From Chitinophagaceae bacterium (lineage in GTDB: Bacteria > Bacteroidota > Bacteroidia > Chitinophagales > Chitinophagaceae), in the NCBI GenBank assembly GCA_014379345.1, contig JACMLY010000004.1:1-58249 (forward strand): 58,249 bases of DNA. The letters are read 5' to 3'. How positions within the stretch are numbered: the first letter of the stretch is position 1; every line of letters starts with the position of its first letter. Shown one piece after another: positions 6,272 through 22,382 of this stretch. The notes under the pieces were generated by a model. It saw nothing but the letters and a program-made list of their open reading frames with translations, did no database searches and was not told the origin of the DNA. The translations under genes and the position numbers were made by a program.

Positions 6272-6341
6272 TGATGTAGAAATGATGTAGTTTATAAGTA
6301 TCCTTAAATGATTTTTGGGGTATGTTGTAGTACTGACGTAG
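6272..6341 (+). promoter_or_regulatory. Paired TGAYGTAG operator unit (reverse to its gene)
   Basis: Half-sites TGATGTAG at 6272 and 6283, and TGTTGTAG at 6323 and TGACGTAG at 6334. Each pair has an 11-bp period and the pairs are 51 bp apart, matching the units before 9937, 15421 and 17290. Unlike those, no TAnnTTTR follows 39 bp after the last half-site; the only gene that could use it is on the other strand (start 6199), 73 bp away, where a TAACTTTT element occurs at 6217-6224 on the minus strand. Confidence 0.6.
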
Positions 6342-6477: not shown

Positions 6478-9393
6478 TTATTCTTCTTTTTGAAAGGAAA
6501 ATTCCAAGAGGTAATTAAATAAATTGGTTTCTGTTGGTATCCGGAATTTTTTTCTCAGTCGGTAGCGGCTTATTTCAACTCCTCTTACAGAAATATTCAT
6601 AAGCTGAGCAATTTCCTTACTCGATAAATTCATTACCAGGTAAGCACAAAGCTTAAGCTCATGGGCACTTAATGTGGGGTGACTTGCTTTGAGCGTTTTC
6701 AGGAAATTGCTATGGACTTTATCAAAATGAGCCGCAAAATGCTCCCAGTCCTTATCCATCTTGTCTTCCTCACCCAGTATGTGAATTAATTTTTTATAGT
6801 CCCCACCTGAATGGGTATCGCCATTTGAGTTTCTTTTTAAGCGAATCAGTTCTTCTTTAATATTTGCCAGGAGCTCGCCTTTTTGCACCAGATGCATAGC
6901 AACAGAGGCCAGCTCAGTGTTTTTATGTTCAATTTCTGATTGCAGCTTTTCGTTTTTCAGCGTAACAATTTCTTTTTCAGACTTTTCTATTTCAAGTTGA
7001 TGTAAATATTGTAATCTTTTTTGGTCCTCCTCATGTTTCTTCTGTTGGGCAAAAAATATTTTCTGTTGTTTGGAATAAGCCAGATAAAGAATAATAAAGG
7101 ATAAGATAAAATACATAATGTAGGCCCAGGACGTTTGATACCAGGGGGGTAGAACCGTAAATGAATAGCTGTTAATGGCTGATTCACTGCCTAAATTGTT
7201 CTTTGCTTTTACCTGAAATTTATAGGTTCCTGCCGGCAGGTTGGTATAATCTTTTTCCGCTTTTTTCGACCATGAGGACCAGTCTTTATCAAATCCCTCC
7301 AGGTAGTAGGCATATAGAACACTATTCTGATGTTCATAAAGGGGTGAAGAGTATTTAAAATTTAAGGAATTCCTGTTATGAGCTATATTAGGCATAGCTT
7401 GCTCTGGTTGATCCCGTACCTGACTTGCCTCTCCATAGTATCCGCCAAATAATAAACTGTCAGTATTTCCCACGGTTTTTACTGATCTTATTTTAACTAT
7501 GATCTTGTACTTGTTTTTTTTATACTTCTCATAGTTTATATGATAAAAGCCTTTCTCAGAGCCTATGAAAATATTAAATTCATTGTATGGATTTATATGT
7601 TCAAAGCCACTCACCATTTTGCCATTTAATTCCGGAAAATAAATAGTTTCCGGCTTAGACCCGGAAAGATCAACCACACCCAGGTTTTTTTCTTCTACGA
7701 ACCAGATATTCCCGGCTGCGTCTTCTTTTAAATGCCTGATATTTCTTTGGCCGAAGAATTCTGTAAAATATCCGGATAGTTCAAAAGAATCTCTTTTTTC
7801 GTTATAGCTGTAAATACCTTTTTCTGTGGTAACAACAATGCGGTTCTTTATTTTAAAGAGATGATTTTTTATGGGCGAAGGCAATCCATTATTATCGGTA
7901 TATAGTTTAATAATGGGATGGCGAGGATCATTAATATCTATTTTATACACTCCCCTGTACGGGTGAGCCAGCCAAAGGGTACTGTTATTATCGATAGCGA
8001 CAAACTGCGAATGTCCGTTAAAACCGGGCACACTCCCTTTTGGATAAAATATATTATTTTCAAATTGAAGAATATCCAATCCAATCTCATTACCCGCTAC
8101 AAGTAACGAAGAAGGCAAAACATTCGATAAAGGCAAAAAAAACATGTACCCATTTCTTTTTTTAATGGGTATTAGTGTGTTATTTTTTATCTGGAACGCG
8201 CCATCATGATGCCCGAGTAATAAACTTCCATTCACTTCAGATAAATTCCAGGCAGAACCCTTTGTTTCCGGTAACGATATAAATTCTCCCGTTGCAAAGC
8301 TAAGATCCTGTTTTTCAGGAAGTGGTACCCAATACACCCCATTTGATGTTCCCAGATATAATTTATTATCAAATCGTATTGAGGTATAGCCTTCACCCTC
8401 ATTTAAGGCTTCCGGGTAGATATGTTTTATTGCATTATTGTAGGCAATAAAATCAATGCCATTATCTAAACCCAGCCAAAGATTATTATCATAATCAAGA
8501 AAAAGGGACAACACATTATTAAGTTGTAACCCTTCCTTTCTGCTCAGACTTTGTATTATTTCTCCCTTTTTATTAATAATATAACAACCGTCGAGATTGG
8601 TGCCTACCGCAATCCTGTCTTCAGTAATAGGAATGGCAGTAAGAATACGTTCTTTTAAAAATGGATTGAATCCCGCAAATTCAAACTTTGAAACTTTATT
8701 GTTGGAAAGGATATAAAAACCGGTGGTGATCGTTGTAAAAAAAGAACTGTCTTTTCCAAGCGGAAAAATAGCCGTAACGCGGTATTCTTCCGGCAAGATA
8801 CTCTCCCTGAGGAAGGGCACCCATAATCCATGTGTGAATTCCAATAACCCGTTTTTAACGTCTTGCGCAATCAGCTGGTTGTTGCTGGATCCCAAAAATT
8901 CCCATTCCGAGGGAGCCGTATAAACGGTTATCGAACCGTTGCTTAATTGGAATATTTTCTCTTTTGTTCTAAAAAATATATCATTTCCATAAGCAACAAT
9001 GTTCCAGATATCAGTAAAAGAATAATTCTTTTCAGAAAGTAAAGGTTTCAGTGACCTAAACGTCAACTTCCCATTTTTAGCAGGAGAAAAGTAGCCAAAG
9101 TCATCCTGGCCACCCGCGTAGATTTTATTGTCTTTTCCTATTGCTATTGACCTTACTATGGTTTTATTTGGAAGTGGGTAGGTAATCCATTGCGTTCCGT
9201 CAAAACTCAGCAGTCCCTCATAGTTGGCAAAATATACAATTCCATTTTTATCCTGTACGATTCCCCGGTTCTGCGTTCCGGCATTATAGGTGCTCCGGGT
9301 GAAGTTAATAATGTCAGGTATTCCAATCGTATTTTGAGAAAACGAAGGAATAAACGGAACTAAAAAAAAGAGTATAACTACAATTTTTTTCAT
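6478..9393 (-). CDS. Membrane-spanning regulator: propeller, Y_Y_Y, TM, LuxR-type HTH
   Basis: 971 residues counted from the ATG at 9393, which begins a clear signal peptide (KKIVVILFFLVPFIPSFS); an open extension to 9540 lacks one and is rejected. Domains: periplasmic beta-propeller of Reg_prop-like repeats (about 25-680), Y_Y_Y/triple-tyrosine domain ending in TYKFQVKAKNNLGSES (about 690-760), one transmembrane helix (about 770-790), a coiled coil rich in Lys/Glu (about 795-860) and a C-terminal LuxR/GerE helix-turn-helix (LSAHELKLCAYLVMNLSSKE). There is no histidine kinase or receiver domain, so a periplasmic ligand signal would be relayed straight to a DNA-binding domain. By analogy with hybrid Sus regulators it should control the adjacent genes; the shared repeat operators are the obvious candidate targets. 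Single half-sites at 9436 and 9490 in its own upstream region suggest autoregulation. Confidence 0.85.
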   Translation of the reverse strand: MKKIVVILFFLVPFIPSFSQNTIGIPDIINFTRSTYNAGTQNRGIVQDKNGIVYFANYEGLLSFDGTQWITYPLPNKTIVRSIAIGKDNKIYAGGQDDFGYFSPAKNGKLTFRSLKPLLSEKNYSFTDIWNIVAYGNDIFFRTKEKIFQLSNGSITVYTAPSEWEFLGSSNNQLIAQDVKNGLLEFTHGLWVPFLRESILPEEYRVTAIFPLGKDSSFFTTITTGFYILSNNKVSKFEFAGFNPFLKERILTAIPITEDRIAVGTNLDGCYIINKKGEIIQSLSRKEGLQLNNVLSLFLDYDNNLWLGLDNGIDFIAYNNAIKHIYPEALNEGEGYTSIRFDNKLYLGTSNGVYWVPLPEKQDLSFATGEFISLPETKGSAWNLSEVNGSLLLGHHDGAFQIKNNTLIPIKKRNGYMFFLPLSNVLPSSLLVAGNEIGLDILQFENNIFYPKGSVPGFNGHSQFVAIDNNSTLWLAHPYRGVYKIDINDPRHPIIKLYTDNNGLPSPIKNHLFKIKNRIVVTTEKGIYSYNEKRDSFELSGYFTEFFGQRNIRHLKEDAAGNIWFVEEKNLGVVDLSGSKPETIYFPELNGKMVSGFEHINPYNEFNIFIGSEKGFYHINYEKYKKNKYKIIVKIRSVKTVGNTDSLLFGGYYGEASQVRDQPEQAMPNIAHNRNSLNFKYSSPLYEHQNSVLYAYYLEGFDKDWSSWSKKAEKDYTNLPAGTYKFQVKAKNNLGSESAINSYSFTVLPPWYQTSWAYIMYFILSFIILYLAYSKQQKIFFAQQKKHEEDQKRLQYLHQLEIEKSEKEIVTLKNEKLQSEIEHKNTELASVAMHLVQKGELLANIKEELIRLKRNSNGDTHSGGDYKKLIHILGEEDKMDKDWEHFAAHFDKVHSNFLKTLKASHPTLSAHELKLCAYLVMNLSSKEIAQLMNISVRGVEISRYRLRKKFRIPTETNLFNYLLEFSFQKEE

Positions 9394-9416: not shown

Positions 9417-9499
9417 AAAAGGTATATAAAAATGCTGACGTAGTAATAATTCTCAATAATGCCGTATATAGTAGCTGTAATTGATCTAATGAAGTAGTC
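9417..9499. promoter_or_regulatory. Upstream region of the regulator with single half-sites
   Basis: Two isolated half-sites, TGACGTAG at 9436-9443 and TGAAGTAG at 9490-9497, both on the plus strand and 54 bp apart, i.e. the same long spacing as the paired units but without partners 11 bp away. On the minus strand TACCTTTT (revcomp of 9417-9424) is a near-match to the TAnnTTTG element about 24 bp before the start codon at 9393, so a bound protein at 9436 would overlap the promoter. Confidence 0.4.
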
Positions 9500-9798: not shown

Positions 9799-9870
9799 TG
9801 ATGTAAAAATGATGTGGCAAAAACACGGCTTTTAAACTCAATTTTTAAATGCGATGTAGTATTGATGTAG
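9799..9870 (+). promoter_or_regulatory. Paired TGAYGTAG operator unit for the PD40/GMC operon
   Basis: Half-sites TGATGTAA 9799, TGATGTGG 9810 (distal pair, degenerate) and CGATGTAG 9852, TGATGTAG 9863 (proximal pair). Period within pairs 11 bp; between pairs 53 bp. The last half-site starts exactly 39 bp before TAGCTTTG (9902). One helical turn between half-sites and five turns between pairs put all four on one DNA face, as expected for cooperative activator binding. Confidence 0.75.
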
Positions 9871-9901
9871 TACAAACGATACAGACATTTAATAACCGGC
9901 C

Positions 9902-9909
9902 TAGCTTTG
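9902..9909 (+). promoter_or_regulatory. -7 promoter element
   Basis: TAGCTTTG fits the Bacteroidota -7 consensus TAnnTTTG, 28 bp before the ATG at 9937. No TTG element is evident at -33; the proximal operator pair ends 32 bp upstream, consistent with activator dependence. Confidence 0.6.
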
Positions 9910-9936
9910 AAGGATTCTAACAGGTAAATCTCATTA

Positions 9937-11487
9937 ATGGAAAATCGAAGCTTGCAACAAAAAATGATCGCCCTTTTAATTGTGTTAAGTGTAAGTATTT
10001 CACTTTTTTCACAAAAAAAATCAATTGGCATTTTTGATGGAAGTGGTGATGTAGGAACAGGTGTAAAAGCCGGGTCGGCTGCTTACCTGCCACGTACCCA
10101 GCAATATGTAATTTCCGGGGCCGGATACAATGTATGGCTCGATCACGATGAATTTCAATTTGTATGGAAGAAGATAAAAGGAGATTTCATTCTTTATACC
10201 CGGGCAGAATTCTTAGGCCCCTGGGTGTCTATCCACAAAAAAGTAGGATGGATGGTACGTAAAAGCCTTGACGGAAATTCTGCACACGTCAATGCAGTAG
10301 AACATGGTGACGGTCTCACTTCCCTGCAATTTCGGAGAACAGCGGGAGCTCAGACAGAAGAACACAAGCTAAAGATGACTCATGCAAACATCCTTCAGCT
10401 GGAGAGAAAAGGCAATCAATATATTATGCGGGCTGCCGTATTTGGGGAGCCTTTTAAAACGGATACGATCACTGGTATTGATCTTGGAGACGAAGTCTAT
10501 GTGGGACTTTTTGTAGGTTCTCATAATTCGGACGTACTTGAAACGGGTGTTTTCAGTAATGTAAGCATCACGATTCCTTTCAATGGCGTGGCCGACCAAA
10601 GAACACAAATGACTTTGGGTAGTAACCTGGAAGTGCTGGAGGTTGCTTCCGGAAAGAGGGAAGTGATTTATCAGGAACCATTTTCTATTCAGGCTCCTAA
10701 CTGGACACCGGATGGAAAAGCATTGATATATAATGATGCTAAAGGTTCCATGTATACTTTTGATCTTGCCACACGAACTCCCAAATTATTAAATACCGGT
10801 AATGTTAAGTCGAACAATAATGATCATGTGCTTTCCTTTGACGGTAAAATCATTGGACTGAGCAGCAGTGTTAGAGAACTTGGTGGATCCATTATTTATA
10901 CCGTACCGGTGACAGGCGGTACACCCAAACAAATTACTCCAAAAGGACCTTCGTATTTGCATGGCTGGTCACCGGATGGGAAAGATCTTGTTTTTTGTGG
11001 ATCCAGGAATGGAGAGTATGATGTATACAAAATCCCGGCTGCTGGCGGAGAAGAAGTCCGTTTAACAGATTCCAAAGGGCTTGATGATGGACCAGAATAT
11101 TCTCCTGACGGTAAATACATTTACTTCAATTCAGTACGATCAGGCGGCATGCAGATCTGGCGTATGAAACCCGACGGTAGTGACCAGGAACAGGTAACCA
11201 GCGATGATTTCCACAACTGGTTTGCGCATATATCACCTGATGGAAAATCTATGGTATTCCTTTCTTTTTTAAAGGAAGAAGTAGAAGCTGGAATTCACCC
11301 CCCTTACAAAAATGTTTATATAAGGCATATGGCTGTAGGTGGGGGCACACCAAAAGTGTTGGGGTATGTATATGGCGGGCAGGGTTCCATCAATACACCC
11401 TCATGGTCTCCCGATAGTAAAAAAATTGCTTTTATCAGTAATACTCTTGCTCCGGTTCGTGCTAATACGATGGCAGGTAGTGAATGA
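9937..11487 (+). CDS. Secreted PD40 (TolB-like propeller) protein, paralog 1
   Basis: 516 residues with a signal peptide ending near SLFSQ. Residues about 28-215 form a jelly-roll/concanavalin-like domain (SIGIFDGSGDVGTG, VGWMVRKSLDG) resembling DUF1349-type lectin domains. Residues about 225-510 form a six-bladed propeller built of PD40 repeats, visible as repeated (S/T)PDGKxxxF motifs (APNWTPDGKALIYND, SWSPDGKDLVF, YSPDGKYIYFNS, ISPDGKSMVFLS). It is clearly paralogous to 15421-16977 along its whole length. Such proteins are often labelled TolB-like, but there is no Tol-Pal context; a carbohydrate-binding or sensing role fits the operon better. First gene of the run 9937-14970 and preceded by an operator unit. 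Confidence 0.8.
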   Translation: MENRSLQQKMIALLIVLSVSISLFSQKKSIGIFDGSGDVGTGVKAGSAAYLPRTQQYVISGAGYNVWLDHDEFQFVWKKIKGDFILYTRAEFLGPWVSIHKKVGWMVRKSLDGNSAHVNAVEHGDGLTSLQFRRTAGAQTEEHKLKMTHANILQLERKGNQYIMRAAVFGEPFKTDTITGIDLGDEVYVGLFVGSHNSDVLETGVFSNVSITIPFNGVADQRTQMTLGSNLEVLEVASGKREVIYQEPFSIQAPNWTPDGKALIYNDAKGSMYTFDLATRTPKLLNTGNVKSNNNDHVLSFDGKIIGLSSSVRELGGSIIYTVPVTGGTPKQITPKGPSYLHGWSPDGKDLVFCGSRNGEYDVYKIPAAGGEEVRLTDSKGLDDGPEYSPDGKYIYFNSVRSGGMQIWRMKPDGSDQEQVTSDDFHNWFAHISPDGKSMVFLSFLKEEVEAGIHPPYKNVYIRHMAVGGGTPKVLGYVYGGQGSINTPSWSPDSKKIAFISNTLAPVRANTMAGSE

Positions 11488-11641
11488 CTTAATATTAATT
11501 ACAAGATCAATGGTGACTTTCTGAAAGAAACGGGTGTACTGGATCATCGAGAGGTGGTTCTGAATACCCTGCAACATATACTATTTATCTGATGCGGAAA
11601 TATTGACCATCTCTGTTTTACTAAAACAAAAATCATAATTA

Positions 11642-12478
11642 ATGAAAACAAGGCGAGAATTTCTAAAAACCTCAGGCGTATTAACAGCTGGTTCTGTTTT
11701 ATGGTCCCAATTTCCGGAGCCGGAAAAGTTTAAAAATATGGGTGTACAGCTCTATACTTTCCGTAAAGAAATGCAGGATGATGCCATAGGCACATTAAAA
11801 AAAATAGCATCGTTGGGGTTGATGCAAATTGAATCGGCAAGAAGTGAAAAAGGGAATTACTATGGCCTATCCCCAAAAGAAATGAAGAAAGTTTGTGCTG
11901 ACCTCGGCATGACGCTGCGCAGCGGCCATGTTCATGTTGATAATAAATTTCAACAAACATTGAATGAAGCTGCAGAAGCAGGACAGGAATACCTGATATG
12001 TTCAACAATGCCAACCAAGGGGCAAACGGTTGACAATTATAAAAAAGTGGCTGAATCTTTTAATAAGACAGGGGAAGCCTGTAAAAAAATGAACCTCAAA
12101 TTCGGATATCATAATCATTCTTATGAATTTGAAAGTGAAAATGGCCAGGTATTATACGATGTTCTATTAAAAAATACAGATGCGGAGCTTGTACATATGG
12201 AATTAGACCTGGGTTGGGTAATTGTTGCTGATAAAAATCCAATGGATTATTTCAAGAATTTTCAGGGACGGTTCCCTCTCTGGCATTTGAAAGATATGAA
12301 TATGGCGAAAAAGGAAAGCACTGAATTCGGCAAAGGAGGTTTAGACATTCTTCAGATGTTGAAACAATCCAAACAATCGGGGATGAAATATTTTTTTGTG
12401 GAGCAGGAAGAGTATGCAAGTACGCCTTTTGAAAGTATGAAGGAGAATATGGATTTTATAGCGAAACTGAAATTGTGA
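11642..12478 (+). CDS. Tat-type sugar phosphate isomerase/epimerase (TIM barrel)
   Basis: 278 residues. The N-terminus KTRREFLKTSG is a twin-arginine signal, followed by the AP-endonuclease-2/xylose isomerase-like TIM barrel. Metal ligand regions are visible: Glu in MQIESAR, His in YHNHSYEF, Glu/Asp in MELDLGW, His in LWHLKDM and Glu in FFVEQEEY. Exported members of this family occur in Bacteroidota next to GMC oxidoreductases and are thought to act on oxidised sugars, for example keto-sugar isomerisation or lyase steps; the substrate cannot be read from the sequence. It follows the PD40 gene after 154 bp and precedes the gluconate dehydrogenase subunit gene by 28 bp, so co-transcription is likely. 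Confidence 0.85.
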   Translation: MKTRREFLKTSGVLTAGSVLWSQFPEPEKFKNMGVQLYTFRKEMQDDAIGTLKKIASLGLMQIESARSEKGNYYGLSPKEMKKVCADLGMTLRSGHVHVDNKFQQTLNEAAEAGQEYLICSTMPTKGQTVDNYKKVAESFNKTGEACKKMNLKFGYHNHSYEFESENGQVLYDVLLKNTDAELVHMELDLGWVIVADKNPMDYFKNFQGRFPLWHLKDMNMAKKESTEFGKGGLDILQMLKQSKQSGMKYFFVEQEEYASTPFESMKENMDFIAKLKL

Positions 12479-12506
12479 AAATCAGGGATCCGAAAATTTC
12501 ATCAAC

Positions 12507-13034
12507 ATGAACAGAAGAACAGCAATACATCATGCTATCCTTATTTCCGCAGGGGCAGTACTCGTTCCTTCCTGTTTGCAACATGACAAAGGTGTTATCG
12601 CATTAAAAAAAATTTCGCTGAACCGTCAGCAGGAACTATTGGTAGAAAGTGTTACTGAAGCAATTATTCCCAAAACAAAAAATTTTATCGGCGCAAAAGA
12701 TCTGAGATCTCATGAATTTGTATTGACAATGGTAGATGATTGTTTAAACCCGGAAGATCAACAGAGATTTAAAGATGGCTTGAAGGCTTTTGATAAATTA
12801 AGTCATGATAAATTTGGCCAGCTGTTTACCAGCTATACAGCAAAACAAAAGCATGAGTTGCTGGTGGATATTGAAAACAAAAAAGATATTCCGGACGACG
12901 CATTGAAATTTTATGAAACGGTAAAACGCTACACGGTGCAAAGCTTTACATCGTCCAGAGAATACATGACTGGTATTAGAAAATATAAAATGGTGCCGGG
13001 CTCTGTTTTTAAGGGTTGCGTTAAGGTAGTCTGA
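12507..13034 (+). CDS. Gluconate 2-dehydrogenase subunit 3 family protein
   Basis: 175 residues. NRRTAIHHAILISAGAVL is a Tat-like signal ending in a lipobox-like VPSC, so the protein is probably an exported lipoprotein. The remainder is helical and matches the Gluconate_2-dh3 family (VTEAIIPKT, AKDLRSHEFV, YETVKRYTVQSF). The family is the small partner of GMC-type membrane sugar dehydrogenases; here the catalytic subunit follows directly (13267). It likely guides export of, and anchors, the signal-less GMC subunit. A 7-bp hairpin (13033-13039 / 13044-13050) overlaps its stop codon without a T-run. Confidence 0.85.
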   Translation: MNRRTAIHHAILISAGAVLVPSCLQHDKGVIALKKISLNRQQELLVESVTEAIIPKTKNFIGAKDLRSHEFVLTMVDDCLNPEDQQRFKDGLKAFDKLSHDKFGQLFTSYTAKQKHELLVDIENKKDIPDDALKFYETVKRYTVQSFTSSREYMTGIRKYKMVPGSVFKGCVKVV

Positions 13035-13266
13035 TCTCTATACAGAGATCGCTGTGGAACGAAAGATTTTTGTTTGATGCAAAGAAATAAAATACAGTAT
13101 CCAAAATCTCCGGGTCTTTGTGCCTTTGTGGCAAAACTGATCAACGACATGTGAGTTTCCAACTAAATTATGGTAGGAAAAGTTTATAAAAGGCAATCCT
13201 TCTGATCAATGCTTACAAATTTAAGATTATAGAGCCGGCTAGGGAACATCTTACAATTATTAAAAT
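13035..13266. repeat. Spacer with common Bacteroidota intergenic repeat
   Basis: The segment TCTTTGTGCCTTTGTGGC (about 13115-13132) is a word found repeatedly between genes in Bacteroidota. No gene or operator is seen, so the GMC gene probably belongs to the upstream transcript. Confidence 0.45.
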
Positions 13267-14970
13267 ATGGCCGATAAAAATACCTTCGATGCAATTGTAA
13301 TTGGGAGTGGAATGAGTGGTGGATGGGCAGCAAAAGAGCTATGTGAAAAAGGATTGAAAACATTATTGCTTGAGCGGGGCCGTGATGTGAAACATATCAA
13401 AGATTATCCAACAAGCAGTATGTTCCCGTGGGAATTTAAACACCGGGGTCAGGTTCCATATGAAATAACCAAAGACAATCCTGTAGTATCACGTTGTTAT
13501 GCCTTTAAAGAAGATGCCATGGATTTTTTTGTAAAGGATACGGAACATCCATATGTGCAGGAGAAACCATTTGACTGGATACGGGGTTACCAGGTAGGCG
13601 GCAAAAGTATTATGTGGGCAAGACAAACACAGCGCTGGAGTGATTTTGATTTTGAAGGCCCTGCCCGAGACGGTTTTGCAGTTGACTGGCCTATTCGTTA
13701 TAAAGAACTTGCACCATGGTATAGTTATGTGGAAAAATTCGCAGGTATCAGTGGTAACAGGGATGGTTTGGACACATTGCCTGACGGAGAATTTTTACCA
13801 CCGTGGGAATTAACCTGTGTAGAAAATCATTTTAAAGAAATGGTTTCAAAAAATTATCGTGATCGTCACGTTATATATGCACGCTGCGCACATTTAACAA
13901 AACCTGAACCCATACATATCGAGCAGGGTCGGGGACAATGCCAGGCGAGAAATTTATGCCAGAGAGGTTGTCCATTCGGCGGCTACTTCAATGCCAATTC
14001 TACCACCATTCCCTGGGCGCAGAAAACGGGCAACTTAACTATGGGCACACATGCAATCGTTCATTCTGTTATTTATGATGAGGAAAAAAAGAAAGCGACA
14101 GGTGTTCGTGTCATTGATGCCAATACCAAACAAGGCACTGAATATTTCGCAGCTGTAATTTTTGTAAATGCAGGAGCCATCAATACCAATCTGATTTTAC
14201 TGAATTCAATATCGAAACATTTTCCCAATGGCTTGGGTAATGAAAATGGATTGATGGGAAAATATTTTGCCTTTCATAATTACCGCGCGAGGATTACAGC
14301 AAAGTATGAAGGTATGCTTGATAGCAAAACAGAAGGCAGCCGCGCCAGTGGCGCTTATATTCCACGCTTTCGAAATGTAAGAAAACAGGAAACGGATTTT
14401 CTGCGGGGTTATGCTACTACATTTAATGCAAACCGGGGTAGGGGTAGTAGAAATGCAGAAGGAAGGTTTGGAGAAGAATTAAAAACGACATTGATGGATA
14501 CGTCTGCGCCAATGGGCCCCTGGAATATTGGTTCGCAATGTATGGGCGAAACTATTCCGAAAGAGACCAATTTTGTGAATTTACATAACGATCAGAAAGA
14601 TACATGGGGAATGCCATTAATCAATATCTCCGCTGTGTTTGATGATAATGATGAAAAAATAATAAAAGATTTCATGGAGCAATATACAGAAATGTACACG
14701 CGGGCAGGATTTACTGAAATAAAAACATCGGATAGCAAACAGGCTCCTGGTCTTGATATACATGAAATGGGTGGAGTACGCATGGGGAAGGACCCTAAAA
14801 CATCTTTACTTAACGGGTGGAACCAGATGCATGCTTGCAAAAATGTATTTGTGACAGATGGCGCCTGCATGACATCCACGTCTACGCAGAATCCATCGCT
14901 TACTTATATGGCATTGGCCGCAAGGGCGGCGAATTATGCCGTGGAAATATTGAAAAGACGGGAGATATAG
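13267..14970 (+). CDS. GMC oxidoreductase (sugar dehydrogenase catalytic subunit)
   Basis: 567 residues. FAD-dependent glucose-methanol-choline family. N-terminal Rossmann motif VIGSGMSGGWAAKELCEKG with the following ERG acidic residue; a substrate domain in the middle with a Cys-rich stretch (CQARNLCQRGCPFGG, about 227-242) typical of the gluconate/fructose-dehydrogenase branch; C-terminal active site His in LDIHEMGGVRMG (about 499) and Asn in STQNPSLTY (about 542). It has no signal peptide, in line with co-export with the Tat-type small subunit encoded just upstream. Likely oxidises sugars or glycosides in the periplasm, possibly to 3-keto forms, which would feed the isomerase at 11642. Electron acceptor not visible (no cytochrome subunit in the window). 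Confidence 0.9.
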   Translation: MADKNTFDAIVIGSGMSGGWAAKELCEKGLKTLLLERGRDVKHIKDYPTSSMFPWEFKHRGQVPYEITKDNPVVSRCYAFKEDAMDFFVKDTEHPYVQEKPFDWIRGYQVGGKSIMWARQTQRWSDFDFEGPARDGFAVDWPIRYKELAPWYSYVEKFAGISGNRDGLDTLPDGEFLPPWELTCVENHFKEMVSKNYRDRHVIYARCAHLTKPEPIHIEQGRGQCQARNLCQRGCPFGGYFNANSTTIPWAQKTGNLTMGTHAIVHSVIYDEEKKKATGVRVIDANTKQGTEYFAAVIFVNAGAINTNLILLNSISKHFPNGLGNENGLMGKYFAFHNYRARITAKYEGMLDSKTEGSRASGAYIPRFRNVRKQETDFLRGYATTFNANRGRGSRNAEGRFGEELKTTLMDTSAPMGPWNIGSQCMGETIPKETNFVNLHNDQKDTWGMPLINISAVFDDNDEKIIKDFMEQYTEMYTRAGFTEIKTSDSKQAPGLDIHEMGGVRMGKDPKTSLLNGWNQMHACKNVFVTDGACMTSTSTQNPSLTYMALAARAANYAVEILKRREI

Positions 14971-15148
14971 GCACCCGGTCAATAAAGACAATTTTAGAAT
15001 TTCATTCCTCGTCTACGATTAATATAAAGAAGAGACGGTGGCGTGCAGTCAACAGGCGCATATTTTTGCTGGTGTTTACTTTGATATTTACCGGGCGTCT
15101 TACGTATATCATGCAAAATTTATGAGTCTGGTTTGATTGAGAGAATAC
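14971..15148. other. Spacer, no gene seen
   Basis: Follows the GMC gene; no terminator hairpin or RNA gene recognised before the operator at 15149. Confidence 0.4.
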
Positions 15149-15220
15149 TGACGTATAGAAGATGTGGCAGAATCAGGCTCTTTCAGAAATTTTTATCTGT
15201 GTGATGTAGTATTGACGTAG
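15149..15220 (+). promoter_or_regulatory. Paired TGAYGTAG operator unit for PD40 paralog 2
   Basis: Half-sites TGACGTAT 15149 and AGATGTGG 15160 (distal, degenerate), then TGATGTAG 15202 and TGACGTAG 15213 (proximal). Period 11 bp within pairs, 53 bp between pairs, and the last half-site starts exactly 39 bp before TATTTTTGC (15252), reproducing the layout at 9799-9909. Confidence 0.75.
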
Positions 15221-15251
15221 CAAGATTTTATAAGCTCTGTGCTATCCGCTT

Positions 15252-15260
15252 TATTTTTGC
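15252..15260 (+). promoter_or_regulatory. -7 promoter element
   Basis: TATTTTTGC is a perfect TAnnTTTGC. It predicts a leader of about 155 bases before the ATG at 15421. No -33 TTG at the usual distance. Confidence 0.65.
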
Positions 15261-15420
15261 ATGATATAATCATTCTTTCATAGATATAGCATTTGGATCT
15301 AATTATACTTCCACTTGTAGCAAGTTTGAAAAGAGTAAGCCGCCTCGTAATCTGTACATAGTCTTATTATACTAAAGTGATTTCCTGAAATTTTGTATCA
15401 GAATATATAAATGCGCCATT

Positions 15421-16977
15421 ATGAAATTTATAAGCTTCCTTCTTCTTATGTTTTTTTATTCTATCGGTTTTGCCCAGAATCCTGTGGGAATTTTTGAGAA
15501 CAGTGCTGACATAGGAAAACCAAAACTTGCCGGTTCTGCAAAGTATGATGAGCTGGCCCAGACGTATACAATAAAAGGAGGGGGCTACAATATCTGGTTT
15601 AATAGAGATGAATTTCATTACCTGTACAAAAGACTAAAAGGTGATTTTATTCTGACAGCGGATTTTGCATTTTCCAAAGTGGGCGGGAATGGTCATAAAA
15701 AAGTTGGCTGGATGATCAGGGAATCGTTAGATGAACAGGCGGCAAGTATAAATGCGTGTGCACATGAAGATGGGTTGGTAGTTCTCCAGTGGCGCCCATT
15801 GCGGGGAACTTTTATGAGAGACCCCGAGGATGAAATATTTTTCTCTAAAAAGAATTTTCATACAGTTCAGCTTGAACGGATTGGTAAAAAAGTTACCATG
15901 AGTGTATCCAGTCGGGGTGAACCCCTTCAAATTGTCGGTTCGCATAATATGTCGGATATGCGTGATTCAGTGTATGCGGGATTATATATTTGCTCGCACG
16001 ACCCCGAAGTTACCGAGGAGGCAACAGTTTGGAATGTTCGGATTGATAAACCGGTTCCAAGTACCTACCATCCAAATCCAATCATATTAAGATCGTTGAA
16101 GCCGCTGGAAGGAGTGATGGGCTGCCGCCTGGAGATTATGGATGTGTTGGATGGTAAAAGAAAAGTGATTCGCGAATCAACGGGTCGTTTTGAAGCACCC
16201 AACTGGATGCCTGATGGGAAAAATCTATTGTATAACGAAAACGGGTCTATCTATAAAATTTCTATTGATGGTGGACCTTCCGAAAAATTAAATACCGGTA
16301 CTGCCACCAGGAATAATAATGATCATGGTATTTCTTTCGATGGAAAAATGCTCGCGATCAGCAGCCACCGTGATGGTTTACCTGGTGGCGGGTCAAGTGT
16401 TTATATACTTCCCCTTGAAGGTGGTGCTCCCAAATTGCTGACCGAAAAAACGCCATCTTATTGGCATGGATGGAATCCAAATGGCAAAGATGTGCTTGTT
16501 ATCGGCCAAAGGGATAGTAGCAAAATATATAATGTTATTAAAGTTCCGGTAAACGGGGGACCTGAAGTGTTGCTTACAAAAAATACGAAGGGTCATGTTG
16601 ATGGCGCTGAATATTCGCCTGATGGCAAGTTCATATATTATAATGCGAATGTTTCCGGCACCATGCAAATCTGGCGGATGAAACCTGATGGCACTGGAAA
16701 AGAACAACTGACATTTGATGAATATCATAATTGGTTTCCACACATTTCACCAGATGGAAAATGGATGGTGATCATTTCTTTCCCTCCGGAGATTGAGCCT
16801 TCCAGTCACCCGTCTTACAAGCGCGTTATGCTGAGATTGTTACCTCTTACTACCGCTGGTGGGGTAAGAGTTATTGCGAATCTCTATGGCGGGCAGGGAT
16901 CATTAAATGTTCCTTCCTGGTCGCCAGACAGCAGGCGCATTGCTTTTGTGAGCAATTCTGAAAAAACTGAAAAATAG
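15421..16977 (+). CDS. Secreted PD40 (TolB-like propeller) protein, paralog 2
   Basis: 518 residues; signal peptide about 1-19 (ending GFAQ). Same two-part build as 9937-11487: a jelly-roll domain (about 20-215; IFENSADIG, VGWMIRESLDE) and a PD40 propeller with repeated motifs (APNWMPDGKNLLYN, YSPDGKFIYYN, ISPDGKWMVIIS, SWSPDSRRIAFVS). The two proteins align end to end, so this is a duplication, with the Tat-enzyme genes lying between the copies. Each copy has its own operator of identical geometry. Function unassigned; likely substrate binding or recognition at the cell surface or periplasm. Confidence 0.8.
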   Translation: MKFISFLLLMFFYSIGFAQNPVGIFENSADIGKPKLAGSAKYDELAQTYTIKGGGYNIWFNRDEFHYLYKRLKGDFILTADFAFSKVGGNGHKKVGWMIRESLDEQAASINACAHEDGLVVLQWRPLRGTFMRDPEDEIFFSKKNFHTVQLERIGKKVTMSVSSRGEPLQIVGSHNMSDMRDSVYAGLYICSHDPEVTEEATVWNVRIDKPVPSTYHPNPIILRSLKPLEGVMGCRLEIMDVLDGKRKVIRESTGRFEAPNWMPDGKNLLYNENGSIYKISIDGGPSEKLNTGTATRNNNDHGISFDGKMLAISSHRDGLPGGGSSVYILPLEGGAPKLLTEKTPSYWHGWNPNGKDVLVIGQRDSSKIYNVIKVPVNGGPEVLLTKNTKGHVDGAEYSPDGKFIYYNANVSGTMQIWRMKPDGTGKEQLTFDEYHNWFPHISPDGKWMVIISFPPEIEPSSHPSYKRVMLRLLPLTTAGGVRVIANLYGGQGSLNVPSWSPDSRRIAFVSNSEKTEK

Positions 16978-17095
16978 ATTTGTGTATAAATCAGACTGTA
17001 AACATTGTTCTGATTTTGCGTAGACTTCGTTACATAAAGAATATAAAAAACTATTTCAAACATTTTAAGATGCAGTCCGGAAAGCCAATTCAATC

Positions 17096-17168
17096 TGATG
17101 TAGTGTTGTTGTGGCTGAAACAACCGTTTTCCTCTTTTGCAAAGGATGGTGATGTAGTATTGAAGTAG
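17096..17168 (+). promoter_or_regulatory. Paired TGAYGTAG operator unit for susCD
   Basis: Half-sites TGATGTAG 17096 and TGTTGTGG 17107 (distal), TGATGTAG 17150 and TGAAGTAG 17161 (proximal). Period 11 bp, pair spacing 54 bp; the last half-site starts 39 bp before TAACTTTA (17200). Confidence 0.75.
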
Positions 17169-17199
17169 TATAAAATCAATTGCCCATACAATTCAAGTA

Positions 17200-17207
17200 T
17201 AACTTTA
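17200..17207 (+). promoter_or_regulatory. -7 promoter element of susCD
   Basis: TAACTTTA, one mismatch to TAnnTTTG, at the same 39-bp distance from the operator as at the two other promoters. Leader of about 75 bases to the ATG at 17290. Confidence 0.5.
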
Positions 17208-17289: not shown

Positions 17290-20200
17290 ATGCGATTAAC
17301 AACTAAAGAGCTTCTAAAAAATGGTTGCACAGTAGCGCTATTGTTATTAAGCTATGGCGTACTTGCTCAAAAAACGGTTACTGGTAGAATCATCAACAAT
17401 AATGACAAACAGCCGCTTCCGGGAGCATCGGTACAGGTAAAAGGCACTCAAATCATTTCACAATCACAAACAGATGGAAATTTTTCTTTAAATGTTCCAG
17501 CCAACTACAATATTCTGGTAATAACGGTGGTGGGGTTTGAAACAATGGAAGTTAATCTATCAGCTACACCTACGCCTGGAGTCATTTCTTTAAAGCCATC
17601 TACAGCATCTCTCAATGAAGTAATAGTAACCGGGTATACGGCCCAAAGGAAAAAGGATATTACCGGTGCAGTTTCAGTAATAAATGTCGACAACATTAAA
17701 AACATCCCATCTGGCACTATTGAATCTGTGCTACAAGGCCAGGCGTCCGGATTAACTGTCATTAATAATGGCGCTCCGGGCGGTCCAAGTAATGTTCGGG
17801 TACGGGGAATCACTTCTGTTGGTAATGTTGACCCGCTCGTTATTATTGACGGTACACCTGGTAATATGCACGATCTCAATCCAAATGATATTCAATCAAT
17901 ACAGGTATTAAAAGATGCGGGTTCGGCAGCCATTTATGGAGTTCGAGGTTCCAATGGAGTCATTATTATTACAACCAAAAAAGGAAAGCAGGGCCCGGCG
18001 CGGGTCACTTATGATGCATATATTGGTTCGCAGCGACCATTGAAGAATGGCTGGAATCTGGCGAATCCTACAGAAAATGCAAACGCAATTTGGGAACAAT
18101 ATAAAAATAGTGGGCTCGTAGCTTCTCATAAGCAATATGGAAATGGTCCAACGCCTGTTATTCCTGATTACATAACACCTACAGCGGGAATCGCGGGCCA
18201 GCCTAATACGGATCCTGCTACTTATAAACTTTACACCAACCAGATCACTAAAGCCAATAAAGAGGGTACCGATTGGTTCCATGAAATTTTCAAACCGGCA
18301 CTCTTACAAAGCCATAATGTTTCTGTAAGTGGGGGAAATGATAAATCAGCTTATTTATTTTCATTGAATTATCTGAACCAGGATGGCACATTGATCCATA
18401 ATTATCTTAGAAGATATTCCGCAAGAATAAATACCCTGTTTAATGTTGGGAAAAATATCCGTATTGGTGAAAATGCCTACGTCGCTTATAAGAAAAATCC
18501 TGGGTACCTGGGTTTGCCGGGAGTAAATAATGCCAACTCCATCAATGCCGCTTATCGCATGCCTGCAATTGTTCCGGTGTATGATATTACAGGCAAAAAT
18601 TTTGCAGGCGGGGGATCTCAAAGCCTTGGTAACTCTCCGAACCCGGTTGCAATTATGGAGCGTACAAAAAACAATAAAGGAAATTCCTGGCAGATCTCGG
18701 GAAATGTATTTGCTGAACTCGATCTCATGAAACACTTTACTGTTCGTACCAGCTTTGGGGGAACGGTGGAGAATTTTTATAATAATGCATTTGTATTTAC
18801 AGCTTATGAGAATGCAGAGAATAGTTCAAACCCCAATAGTTTTATAGAAAGTTCTGGTTTCAGTAGTAGCTGGACCTGGACCAATACGCTTAATTACACA
18901 AACATTTTTGCAACTAAACACAGGGTAAATGCATTAATTGGTAGTGAGGCTATCAGTAATTATGCACGTGGAATATCTGGTTCAAGGGGAAGTTATTTCA
19001 TCACCGACCTGAGTAACTTAACGGTGGATCCCAATTTGTGGACTTTGAACTTTGGTACACCTACCGGTCAACAGAACAGTAACATACTTGTTAATGGAAT
19101 TCAAAGCCCTTATGAAAGCAGTTTGTTTTCATTATTCGGCAGGGTTGATTATGCATTTGATGATAAATATCTCCTTAGTGGAACCTTACGGCGTGACGGT
19201 TCTTCTGTTTTTTCTTCTGAATCGCGGTATGGTGTTTTTCCTTCTATTACGGCTGGCTGGAGAATTTCCAGTGAAAAGTTTATGCAGGGAGTTACCTGGC
19301 TTAACGATCTGAAAATTCGTGGAGGTTGGGGCAAACTTGGATCTCTTAGCAATATCAATCCAACCAATGCATATACCTTATTTGGTTCAAGTTCGGTTTA
19401 CTCTTATTATGATATTAATGGAAGTAGTACCAGTCCTACACTGGGTTTATTCACGGCTCAATATGGTAACCAGGCAACTACCTGGGAAGAAGATATCATA
19501 ACAAATATTGGGTTTGATGCCACCTTGTTTAATAATACGCTGGAACTTTCCATGGAATGGTATAAAAAGGATATCAAAGGTTTATTATACCGACCGGTAG
19601 CCCCTGCTTCAGTTGGAGCAGCAACACTGCCTTTTATAAATGTTGGAAATATTCAAAATAAAGGAATTGACCTATCTGCAATTTATCACGGTAAAATCAA
19701 CAAGGATCTTGGGTTTGATATAACAGCAACTTTTACTTCGTACAATAACAAAGTAATATCGCTTCCCGCAGGCACATTATATTTTGATTATGGTAATTCA
19801 AGATTGCAACCCGGTCAGCCTATTGGCGCATTCTTTGGTTACAAACAAATTGGTTTATTCCAAAGTGCGGCAGACGTATCCGGTTCTCCAACCCAGGAAG
19901 CTGCCGCTCCTGGCAGGCATAAATTTGCAGACGTGAATGGCGATAAAGTTATCAATGCACAAGACAGAACACACTTCGGTGATCCAAATCCTGATTTTAC
20001 TGCAGGTTTAAATCTCGGAGTTAATTATAAAAACTTCGACCTTTTCGTGTTTGTATATGCTTCGGTGGGGAATGATGTTATTAATAATGTTCGTGCCTCT
20101 ATAGATTTTCCGCAGGTATTTGATGTAGCTATCAGTAAGGATGCAGTCTATAATTCATGGACTCCCGATCGTCCAAATGCTAAAGTGCCCAGGCTCGAAC

Positions 20201-20502
20201 GGTCAGCAAATTTCAGTAATACAACCCAGTTCAATTCTTATTACCTGGAAGATGGTTCTTTTCTGCGATGTAAAGCGCTGACGTTGGGATATAACCTTCC
20301 AGGAAATATGATACAGCGATTCGGAATTACCAAGTTCAGAATATACGTGCAGGCACTGAATCTTTTCACTCTCACTAAATACACGGGACTTGATCCTGAA
20401 TTATCGGGCCCTGTACTTACAAGTACAAATTTCGGGAATGATGGTGGAGCATATCCTGCTAATCAGAAAGCGTATACAGTAGGTATCAACCTTTCATTCT
20501 GA
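17290..20502 (+). CDS. susC: SusC/RagA-type TonB-dependent outer membrane transporter
   Basis: 1070 residues from the ATG at 17290; a TTG two codons earlier is not preferred. Signal peptide (about 1-27, ending VLAQ), carboxypeptidase-regulatory-like domain (about 28-105, TGRIINNNDKQPLPGASVQVKG), TonB-dependent plug (about 115-230, with VIVTGYTAQRKKDITGAVSV and GVRGSNGVIIITTKKGK) and a 22-strand barrel ending in the aromatic YTVGINLSF. It imports oligosaccharides or similar substrates, with the SusD partner encoded 41 bp downstream. Regulated by the operator at 17096-17168. The substrate is not deducible, although the flanking GMC enzyme suggests glycosides. Confidence 0.92.
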   Translation: MRLTTKELLKNGCTVALLLLSYGVLAQKTVTGRIINNNDKQPLPGASVQVKGTQIISQSQTDGNFSLNVPANYNILVITVVGFETMEVNLSATPTPGVISLKPSTASLNEVIVTGYTAQRKKDITGAVSVINVDNIKNIPSGTIESVLQGQASGLTVINNGAPGGPSNVRVRGITSVGNVDPLVIIDGTPGNMHDLNPNDIQSIQVLKDAGSAAIYGVRGSNGVIIITTKKGKQGPARVTYDAYIGSQRPLKNGWNLANPTENANAIWEQYKNSGLVASHKQYGNGPTPVIPDYITPTAGIAGQPNTDPATYKLYTNQITKANKEGTDWFHEIFKPALLQSHNVSVSGGNDKSAYLFSLNYLNQDGTLIHNYLRRYSARINTLFNVGKNIRIGENAYVAYKKNPGYLGLPGVNNANSINAAYRMPAIVPVYDITGKNFAGGGSQSLGNSPNPVAIMERTKNNKGNSWQISGNVFAELDLMKHFTVRTSFGGTVENFYNNAFVFTAYENAENSSNPNSFIESSGFSSSWTWTNTLNYTNIFATKHRVNALIGSEAISNYARGISGSRGSYFITDLSNLTVDPNLWTLNFGTPTGQQNSNILVNGIQSPYESSLFSLFGRVDYAFDDKYLLSGTLRRDGSSVFSSESRYGVFPSITAGWRISSEKFMQGVTWLNDLKIRGGWGKLGSLSNINPTNAYTLFGSSSVYSYYDINGSSTSPTLGLFTAQYGNQATTWEEDIITNIGFDATLFNNTLELSMEWYKKDIKGLLYRPVAPASVGAATLPFINVGNIQNKGIDLSAIYHGKINKDLGFDITATFTSYNNKVISLPAGTLYFDYGNSRLQPGQPIGAFFGYKQIGLFQSAADVSGSPTQEAAAPGRHKFADVNGDKVINAQDRTHFGDPNPDFTAGLNLGVNYKNFDLFVFVYASVGNDVINNVRASIDFPQVFDVAISKDAVYNSWTPDRPNAKVPRLERSANFSNTTQFNSYYLEDGSFLRCKALTLGYNLPGNMIQRFGITKFRIYVQALNLFTLTKYTGLDPELSGPVLTSTNFGNDGGAYPANQKAYTVGINLSF

Positions 20503-20543: not shown

Positions 20544-22382
20544 ATGAAACAAAAACATAAAATAATAATAATTGGTTGCCTGAGCATTACACTGATCGCG
20601 TATGCATGCAGTAAGAGTTTTTTGGATAAAAAACCCCTTGGCCAATTGACCGAGACCAGCGTAGCAAATAAGGCAGGCATACAAGCTTTGCTTATTGGTG
20701 CCTATTCTTTTTTAGATGGACAATCTGGATTGTCTCTCGGAGGCACCGATGTTACCGGCATTACTTATGGGGCTGCCGGATCCAATTGGGTGTATGGAAG
20801 CATCGTTGCTGATGATTCTTATAAAGGATCAACACCCAGTGACCAGCCACCGATGGTATTACTGGCAACCTGGTCTAAATCCACATCAACTTCAACGTAT
20901 ATGACCATTAAATGGCGAATTCTTTACGGTGGGATACAACGGGCCAATGATGTAATAAGGCTGTTACCGAAAGCGACTGACATCCCTGCAGCGGAGGCGA
21001 AAATTATGGAAGCTGAATCCCGTTTTTTAAGAGGGCATTATCATTTTGATGCTAAAAAAATGTGGAACAATCCTATTTATGTAGATGAAACAATTACCTA
21101 TGCTGATAACAACTATAATGTTCCAAACATTGACGGCACTGGCAATTTTATCAATATCTGGCCCCAGATCGAAGCTGATTTCCAATTTGCCATTGATAAT
21201 TTACCAGCTACCCAGCCACAAAAAGGGAGGGCTAATAAATGGGCGGCTATGGCATATCTCGCAAAGGCATACATGTTCCAGGATAAATTTGCACAGGCAA
21301 AGCCACTATTGGAAAACCTGATTGCCAACGGAGTTACCGCTTCAGGCGCAAAATACACGCTGGTAAATTTTCAGGATAACTTTAACGCTCAGACTAAAAA
21401 CGGCCCCGAGTCTGTATTTGCTTTCCAAACATCCGTGAATGATGGTTCTGAGCTCAACGGTAATTTCGGGGATGTACTAAACTTCCCTAATGGTCCGGGT
21501 GCACCGGGCGGTTGTTGTGGATTTAATAATCCTTCTTACAACCTGGCCAATGCCTATAAAACAGATGCAGTTACCGGTTTGCCCCTATTAGATACCTGGA
21601 ACAGTGGTACGGGTGTAAGTGATTCAACTAATATTTATATCGGAACATTGGATCCACGTGTTGACTTCACCATTGGTCGTCCAGGACTTCCGTATTTGGA
21701 TTGGGGACCACAAAGCATTGCATGGATACGCGACCCTGCCGTAAATGGTGTGTTTAGTCCAAGAAAGAATGTGTATGCTAAAAGTCAGTTTGGTACATAT
21801 TCATCCAATGAAACCAGTTTTTGGGGAGCTACTCAGATAAATGCCAACAATTATACATTCATCCGTTTTGCTGATATTATTTTATGGGCTGCTGAATGCG
21901 AAATAGAAGTGGGTACGCTTGACAAAGCACAGCAATATGTTAACCAGATTCGCACCAGGGCTGCCGACCCAACGGGATGGGTGTATAAAAATGCTACTTA
22001 TAGCGCTGCCAGTTCAAAATATTCTCCTCAGACTACACCTGCGGATAATTATAAAATCGGCCTTTACCCTGCCGGAAACTTTGCTGCAGGGGGCAAAGAC
22101 TATGCGCGCAAAGCCCTTCAGTTTGAAAGAAGGTTAGAACTGGCAATGGAAGGGCACCGTTTCTTTGATCTATCCCGCTGGGACAATGGTACAGGATTTA
22201 TGGCGAATGTTTTGAATGCATACCAGGCAGTGGAAAAAACCAGGAAATCATTTTTTACTGTTAATCCCACAGCCCAATTCACCAAGGGGGTTAATGAATT
22301 TTATCCGATACCTCAAAGCCAGATTGATGCTGAGAATGCCAGCGGTAAAATAGTATTAAAACAAAATCCCGGTTACAATTAG
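20544..22382 (+). CDS. susD: SusD/RagB-type surface glycan-binding lipoprotein
   Basis: 612 residues. Signal peptide with lipobox IAYAC (Cys22), then the SusD N-terminal region (SFLDKKPLGQLTETSV), TPR-like helical repeats (RFLRGHYHFDAKKMW, AYLAKAYMFQDKFAQAKPLL) and the C-terminal RagB/SusD domain (RFADIILWAAECEIEVG, ARKALQFERRLELAMEGHRFFDLSRW, FYPIPQSQI). It forms the lid of the SusC channel and captures substrate at the cell surface. Directly downstream of susC and followed by an intrinsic terminator. Confidence 0.92.
   Translation: MKQKHKIIIIGCLSITLIAYACSKSFLDKKPLGQLTETSVANKAGIQALLIGAYSFLDGQSGLSLGGTDVTGITYGAAGSNWVYGSIVADDSYKGSTPSDQPPMVLLATWSKSTSTSTYMTIKWRILYGGIQRANDVIRLLPKATDIPAAEAKIMEAESRFLRGHYHFDAKKMWNNPIYVDETITYADNNYNVPNIDGTGNFINIWPQIEADFQFAIDNLPATQPQKGRANKWAAMAYLAKAYMFQDKFAQAKPLLENLIANGVTASGAKYTLVNFQDNFNAQTKNGPESVFAFQTSVNDGSELNGNFGDVLNFPNGPGAPGGCCGFNNPSYNLANAYKTDAVTGLPLLDTWNSGTGVSDSTNIYIGTLDPRVDFTIGRPGLPYLDWGPQSIAWIRDPAVNGVFSPRKNVYAKSQFGTYSSNETSFWGATQINANNYTFIRFADIILWAAECEIEVGTLDKAQQYVNQIRTRAADPTGWVYKNATYSAASSKYSPQTTPADNYKIGLYPAGNFAAGGKDYARKALQFERRLELAMEGHRFFDLSRWDNGTGFMANVLNAYQAVEKTRKSFFTVNPTAQFTKGVNEFYPIPQSQIDAENASGKIVLKQNPGYN

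Follow-up and report, generated by a model that had tools for sequence, protein, structure and literature searches.

Operators built of four half-sites and joined to a promoter element at a near-fixed distance were identified in a sugar locus of a Chitinophagaceae bacterium (GenBank assembly GCA_014379345.1), within a stretch of 58,249 nucleotides that was analysed as a whole and is referred to here as the window (contig JACMLY010000004.1, positions 1 to 58,249 of the forward strand). By direct reading of the DNA, three transcription units are each preceded by four TGATGTAG-like half-sites that form two direct repeats. This arrangement of operator and -7 element is real and far wider than the window, and the two repeats are separated by roughly 3, 4, 5 or 6 complete helical turns, depending on the relative. 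The quartet is probably the operator of the regulator encoded at 6478–9393. Two dimers of this protein are predicted to bind the quartet, both on the same DNA face, and thereby to activate the three promoters; binding and promoter activation by this regulator are what we infer from the sequence. An activator operator bound by this protein was also the interpretation offered in the original prediction, made from the letters of the window, and comparison with related genomes supports it. The operators and -7 elements of the window, with scores from the composite model introduced below, are as follows:

9799..9870, + strand: operator A, half-sites at 9799, 9810, 9852 and 9863; composite score 52.0
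9902..9909, + strand: -7 element TAGCTTTG, 39 bp from the last half-site of operator A
15149..15220, + strand: operator B, half-sites at 15149, 15160, 15202 and 15213; composite score 47.9
15252..15259, + strand: -7 element TATTTTTG, 39 bp from the last half-site of operator B
17096..17168, + strand: operator C, half-sites at 17096, 17107, 17150 and 17161; composite score 58.2
17200..17207, + strand: -7 element TAACTTTA, 39 bp from the last half-site of operator C
6272..6341, + strand: fourth operator, apparently an orphan, with half-sites at 6272, 6283, 6323 and 6334; spacing 51; composite score 35.8

In operators A, B and C, the half-site period within every pair is 11 bp by direct reading, the pair-to-pair distance is 53, 53 and 54 bp, respectively, and a TAnnTTTR element follows, its first base exactly 39 bp downstream of that of the last half-site. 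All of these values, together with the coordinates, had been claimed in the original prediction and were confirmed when the sequence was reread; the fourth quartet, at 6272–6341, had escaped its count of three. The sequence TGAYGTAG is found exactly in just 5 of the 12 half-sites, five others being one base off and two being two bases off, and the final base of the -7 element is G in two of the three cases and A in the third, compared with TAnnTTTG for the Bacteroidota primary sigma factor. A TTG is present in the -33 region of one of the three promoters: the claim that all of them lack it holds for two but not for the susC promoter behind operator C, where 17 bp separate a TTG (17180) from the TA at 17200, the usual distance between TTG and the -7 element being 17–23 bp.

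The arrangement was then followed in DNA upstream of homologs of the regulator, which came from two sources: the window genome plus 58 sampled relatives, yielding 17 homologs with 35–53% identity over most of their length (35–52% in their alignment, A1), and 80 named loci, those ranking best among 592 confirmed named relatives. From these 97 regions, four that shared sequence with another row and one with almost no upstream sequence were dropped, leaving 92; L190 (a C-terminal fragment) and L097 and L098 (homologs of 26–27% identity) never entered the set. When the regions were scored with a half-site matrix derived from the window alone, with the inter-repeat spacing and the -7 element unconstrained, 57 of the 92 regions contained two repeats on the strand directed away from the regulator and none contained two on the opposite strand, and at least one repeat was found in 74 regions on the operator strand versus 3 on the opposite strand. 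The spacings among these 57 were 53 (15 regions), 55 (10), 54 (8), 42 (5), 52 (4) and 56 bp (3), and more rarely 33 (3), 43 (2), 68 (2), 32 (2), 64, 65 and 72 bp. Fifty-four of them fall into the classes 32–33, 42–43, 52–56 and 64–65 bp, approximately one helical turn apart, and the two outliers at 68 bp (L119 and L167) become 52 and 54 bp if a 14-bp period is allowed. A Rayleigh test at the helical period gave p ~1e-14 when calculated over rows and p = 0.005 for the 13 distinct spacings. On a quickly built tree of the regulators, from which two truncated proteins were left out, the number of turns changes at least six times, for example from 5 to 6 in L138 and L147 and from 5 to 4 in the G001/G006 pair. 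The "fixed geometry" of the original prediction was thus correct for the distance to the -7 element, which is kept, but not for the inter-repeat spacing, which steps by approximately whole helical turns within the family.

In the same 57 regions, TAnnTTTR starts 39 bp after the last half-site in 30 cases and 40 bp after it in 5, with at most one occurrence at any other offset, so that the spacing to the -7 element read in the window is conserved in relatives, as had been anticipated; columns 17–38 after the last half-site hold at most 0.28 bits (57 rows). A composite model was subsequently built, with spacings that were set after the unconstrained scan (spacing 51 was allowed just in a later locus scan). 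In leave-one-out use it accepted 62 of the 92 regions, while neither the opposite strand of any of the 92 nor any of 92 Markov sequences was accepted. The -7 element of these 62 operators lies at 39 bp in 52 and at 40 bp in 10, just these two offsets being allowed, and the distance from the -7 element to the start codon ranges from 7 to 171 bp (51 of 62 measured). Because the 39/40-bp distance is kept while the latter varies, the distance from operator to -7 element is the constant element. A TTG occurs in the -33 window of 14 of the 62 operators, versus 50 of 434 in the background, and a TTTG in 11; most promoters, not all, are therefore without a -33 TTG.

The 62 accepted operators are oriented towards the divergent gene, and in at least 35 cases this gene is susC; divergent susC was detected by tblastn with the SusC of the window, and such counts are minima because this search misses some susC-sized genes. 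A scan of 114 loci (1.85 Mb, a few duplicates among them) yielded 71 operators, distributed over 66 loci, whereas 0.97 Mb of Markov sequence yielded none. A second operator is present in five loci. It precedes susC in three of them (L119, L125 and L139) and an isomerase gene in L114, and in L126 the locus ends within the gene that follows it. Enrichment upstream of genes, which the original prediction had named as a test, is borne out by both the homolog regions and the locus scan.

The operator is also linked to the regulator across genomes. A family survey of 195 genomes, in which a repeat was allowed at most one mismatch, a regulator was called at E 1e-120 or better and a few matches were cut by contig ends, identified the repeat in 48 genomes, the regulator in 77 and both in 42. 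The regulator is thus present in 42 of the 48 site-bearing genomes versus 35 of the 147 site-free genomes (42/6/35/112; Fisher 2.8e-15), in agreement with the co-occurrence that had been proposed. At the level of single sites, 43 of the 69 near-exact matches lie less than 500 bp upstream of a homolog, and all 43 point away from it. The named loci with regulator homologs are in records titled Chitinophagaceae, Mucilaginibacter, Pedobacter, Dyadobacter and Saprospiraceae. Two close homologs with good operators, both in metagenome bins, are titled Beijerinckiaceae (L168) and Streptomyces griseus (L174), and these titles look misassigned or the contigs misbinned.

For shorter LuxR-type regulators with 27–36% identical C-termini, which are tetratricopeptide repeat (TPR) proteins in the four tested by Pfam, no operator was found in 13 of 14 stretches (best score 1.5), although the upstream part may be cut in three of the 14 because no open reading frame (ORF) of 400 amino acids is present there. 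The remaining stretch, L198 (1–3301), which encodes a TPR/LuxR regulator, scores 16.5 with one good repeat, a spacing of 33 bp and a -7 element at 40 bp, and the operator geometry may therefore extend to a second regulator class. No operator was found in six of seven more distant stretches; in the other, L097, a quartet scoring 23.2 lies beyond the 3′ end of the homolog.

The chance tests within the window are post hoc, as their patterns were built from sites already seen. The pattern GATGTAGTATTGANGTAG at up to three mismatches gave 6 matches in the window versus a mean of 0.10 in 100 shuffles, and a regular expression for the quartet matched three times, each time with a -7 element at 39 bp, and not once in 300 second-order Markov windows. 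In the whole assembly of the same genome (5.1 Mb, 173 contigs, 98% complete), the tandem repeat at 0–2 mismatches has 5 matches, all inside the window, versus 3 in a reversed-pattern control, and at 3 mismatches it occurs at 20 places versus 21 in the reversed control. Since TGATGTAGT is mirror-symmetric, controls based on reversed patterns or reversed sequences do not discriminate, and the controls relied on here are the opposite strand and the Markov sequences. A random distribution of the motif, which would have spoken against the original prediction, is contradicted by the confinement of all matches with up to two mismatches to the window. Because of this confinement, and because the locus contains only one of the genome's 33 SusC genes that pass the family cut-off, the "new regulon" that had been announced looks local here, although further operons carry the operator in relatives.

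The regulator has a predicted signal peptide and a periplasmic sensor composed of two propellers (Reg_prop) and a Y_Y_Y domain, followed by one membrane helix (hydropathy peak at 754–772), long helices predicted to form a coiled coil and a helix-turn-helix (HTH). Pfam at E 1e-3 places Y_Y_Y, Reg_prop and GerE over their cut-offs (GerE 25.2 bits versus a gathering score of 23.5) and Sigma70_r4_2 under its cut-off. The AlphaFold2 model has a pLDDT of 80.9, with low values in the linker helices and in parts of 800–883. By both sequence and fold, the sensor matches the crystal structures of those of BT4663 and BT3049 (4a2l/4a2m; TM-score on the target 0.67–0.76), which belong to hybrid two-component systems (HTCSs), and it shares their two-propeller Reg_prop/Y_Y_Y composition; the protein was rejected as an HTCS on the output side, as the same Pfam search found no histidine kinase, receiver or AraC HTH domain. 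Sensor, membrane helix and HTH are instead combined in one chain, as judged from Pfam, AlphaFold2 and hydropathy, which is the arrangement of transmembrane transcription regulators (TTRs). An identity with SusR was likewise rejected, since the NF058541 profile (NCBIfam) does not match the regulator at E 1e-3. At E 1e-40, this profile has matches in 11 of 148 genomes but none in the genome of the window, and 12 SusR loci of 16 kb contain no operator of the quartet type (best composite score 5.6, versus at least 25 for the 62 accepted operators).

A mechanism consistent with these features would begin with a periplasmic sugar or oligosaccharide that changes the propeller sensor; the signal would pass through the single membrane helix and the coiled coil to the cytoplasmic LuxR-type HTHs, which, as pairs, would occupy the two tandem sites. 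The last repeat would then lie approximately 42–61 bp upstream of the transcription start, where the HTHs, acting from approximately 50–60 bp ahead of that start, could contact RNA polymerase through its sigma or alpha subunits, and the 39/40-bp rule may be the trace of this contact. Because the period within pairs is 11 bp and the pairs are whole turns apart, the four half-sites lie on one face of the DNA, and a membrane-tethered regulator that reaches the DNA from one side would explain why the dimers are whole turns apart.

Several points weigh against this activator reading. LuxR-type dimers often bind inverted repeats and dimers with a twofold-symmetric coiled coil usually prefer them, and direct repeats would for this reason need flexible linkers. 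The period within one pair is 14 bp in 9 of the 62 operators, a misfit to a strict one-turn rule within the pair, and the 72-bp spacing of L178 fits no class. The spacing classes were named after the data had been seen, the homolog rows are not independent because of shared ancestry, and the row-wise Rayleigh p is overstated because the rows are related and 40 of the 57 fall in class 52–56. The reversed control on the homolog regions scored in 48 of 92, although this control is the non-discriminating one. The composite model found no operator in 30 of the 92 homolog regions; these negatives include most homologs from Pedobacter, Parapedobacter and Sphingobacterium, and divergent susC lies within 1.5 kb of the regulator in at least 7 of them and was undetected in 23. 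Moreover, 26 of the 69 near-exact sites fall outside the 500 bp upstream of any homolog, and 11 of these 26 belong to 6 genomes in which no homolog exceeds the threshold (three of the 11 forming one tandem array). The 26 comprise 3 further window sites, 3 in the array of G149 and 20 others, and in 8 of the 19 stretches around these 20 no quartet scores 20 or more. In the remaining 11 stretches such a quartet is present: that of L248 lies beside PD40 genes, those of L258 and L259 lie before susC, and the contigs of L247 and L252 also carry a cut-off piece of a regulator homolog.

The homolog regions without an operator, together with the sites in genomes lacking a homolog above threshold, are what would be expected if another factor, for instance a global regulator of carbon use, read the sites and their association with this protein were incidental. 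Such a reader is quite improbable given the genome-level association and the placement of 43 of the 69 sites, and a global regulon would not have its sites with up to two mismatches at just one locus of the genome. It is also unlikely that the regulator binds the repeats mainly to repress, holding the divergent promoter shut, regulating its own gene and permitting induction by release. The operators do sit between regulator and divergent gene, a common place for autorepression, and two lone half-sites are present just upstream of the regulator (9436 and 9490); a repressor, however, would not need a near-fixed 39/40 bp to the -7 element, 31 bp separate the end of the last half-site from that element, with no overlap, and operators also precede genes distant from the regulator. 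That the upstream regions are similar because DNA was duplicated along with paralogous genes, and not because an operator was selected, is barely conceivable: the genes at 9937 and 15421 are indeed paralogs (47% identical), but the third copy precedes the unrelated susC, and the sequences between half-sites and -7 element differ, as is also seen in the low information of columns 17–38 given above.

The genes of the locus are arranged as follows:

6478..9393, - strand: regulator of 971 amino acids, Reg_prop/Y_Y_Y sensor and LuxR/GerE HTH
9937..11487, + strand: PD40/TolB-like propeller protein gene, behind operator A
11642..12478, + strand: sugar isomerase-like TIM barrel (AP_endonuc_2), likely in the transcription unit of 9937
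12507..13034, + strand: gluconate 2-dehydrogenase subunit 3 family
13267..14970, + strand: GMC oxidoreductase, with a pyranose oxidase-like C-terminus under that family's cut-off
15421..16977, + strand: second PD40 protein gene, behind operator B, 47% identity to the PD40 protein of 9937
17290..20502, + strand: SusC/RagA TonB-dependent transporter gene, behind operator C
20544..22382, + strand: SusD family protein
22475..26062, + strand: FG-GAP/ASPIC-UnbV protein, likely one unit with susCD

The orphan operator at 6272–6341 sits past the 3′ end of the regulator gene and points at it, with no gene behind; no TAnnTTTR was found at 39 bp from this operator, and no ORF of at least 100 amino acids was found on the + strand between it and 9937. 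In L114, an isomerase gene (7200–8096, - strand) with its own operator (8182) is located on the same side of the homolog, and a gene may thus have disappeared from the window locus or been relocated. Ahead of the start of the regulator gene, the lone half-sites TGACGTAG (9436–9443) and TGAAGTAG (9490–9497) are 54 bp apart, at 43 and 97 bp from the start. In relatives, the first half-site lies 31–103 bp from the regulator in 53 of 62 cases, and the two lone half-sites, found at this usual place, are possibly a decayed ancestral operator.

Several of the Pedobacter negatives seem, by eye, to hold diverged versions of the operator. L149, L151 and L172, all from Pedobacter with divergent susC, have low scores and contain TGTTGTGG- and TGTAGTGG-like repeats, and in L149 TATATTTG follows 40 bp on by hand count; a diverged operator specificity is possible in these three. 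In G149 (C223:15213–15253), a genome without a homolog above threshold, TGATGTAGGCT units follow one another in a short tandem array with an 11-bp period.

Many regulators of Bacteroidota sugar loci are without a demonstrated DNA site; according to Ravcheev et al. (2013; PMC3878776), this is the case for SusR, and their study left 20 HTCSs without a motif. One architecture, present in 77 of the 195 family genomes, now gains a precise predicted operator. The defined promoter geometry would allow regulons to be predicted from sequence alone, the operator offers a test of how a membrane-bound activator reaches its promoter, and it suggests a design for inducible promoters.

The same study predicted long-spaced direct-repeat operators for SusR-like regulators of Bacteroides, so that far-apart direct repeats on one helix face are a known idea: there, too, the regulators belong to sugar loci, the two sites lie on the same face and dimers were inferred. 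The SusR-like sites differ in having centres 67 or 77 bp apart, compared with 32–65 bp here, and neither a tandem 11-bp repeat within each site nor a fixed distance to the -7 element is mentioned for them in the portions of PMC3878776 available. The HTCSs, such as BT4663, share the periplasmic fold with its two propellers and Y_Y_Y domain but signal through a kinase, a receiver and an AraC HTH, in place of which the present regulator has a LuxR/GerE HTH; their predicted sites are on average 21 bp apart (PMC3878776, same portions). The TTRs likewise unite a sensor, a membrane segment and a DNA-binding domain in one protein, and Y_Y_Y occurs in 7.7% of them, but the accessible text of their description (PMC10269533) gives no operator for the architecture found here. 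A literature search, with most subscription journals outside its scope, returned no description of this operator among the matches listed. As far as these searches show, the link between this regulator architecture and an operator, the tandem half-sites, the ladder of 3, 4, 5 and 6 turns and the fixed -7 distance are new. There is, in our judgement, an even chance that membrane-tethered propeller/LuxR one-component activators constitute a fourth class of sugar-locus control beside SusR, HTCSs and extracytoplasmic function (ECF) sigma factors, a class marked by a whole-turn rule that would let all four HTHs reach the DNA from the membrane side and by a fixed 39/40-bp docking to the -7 element.

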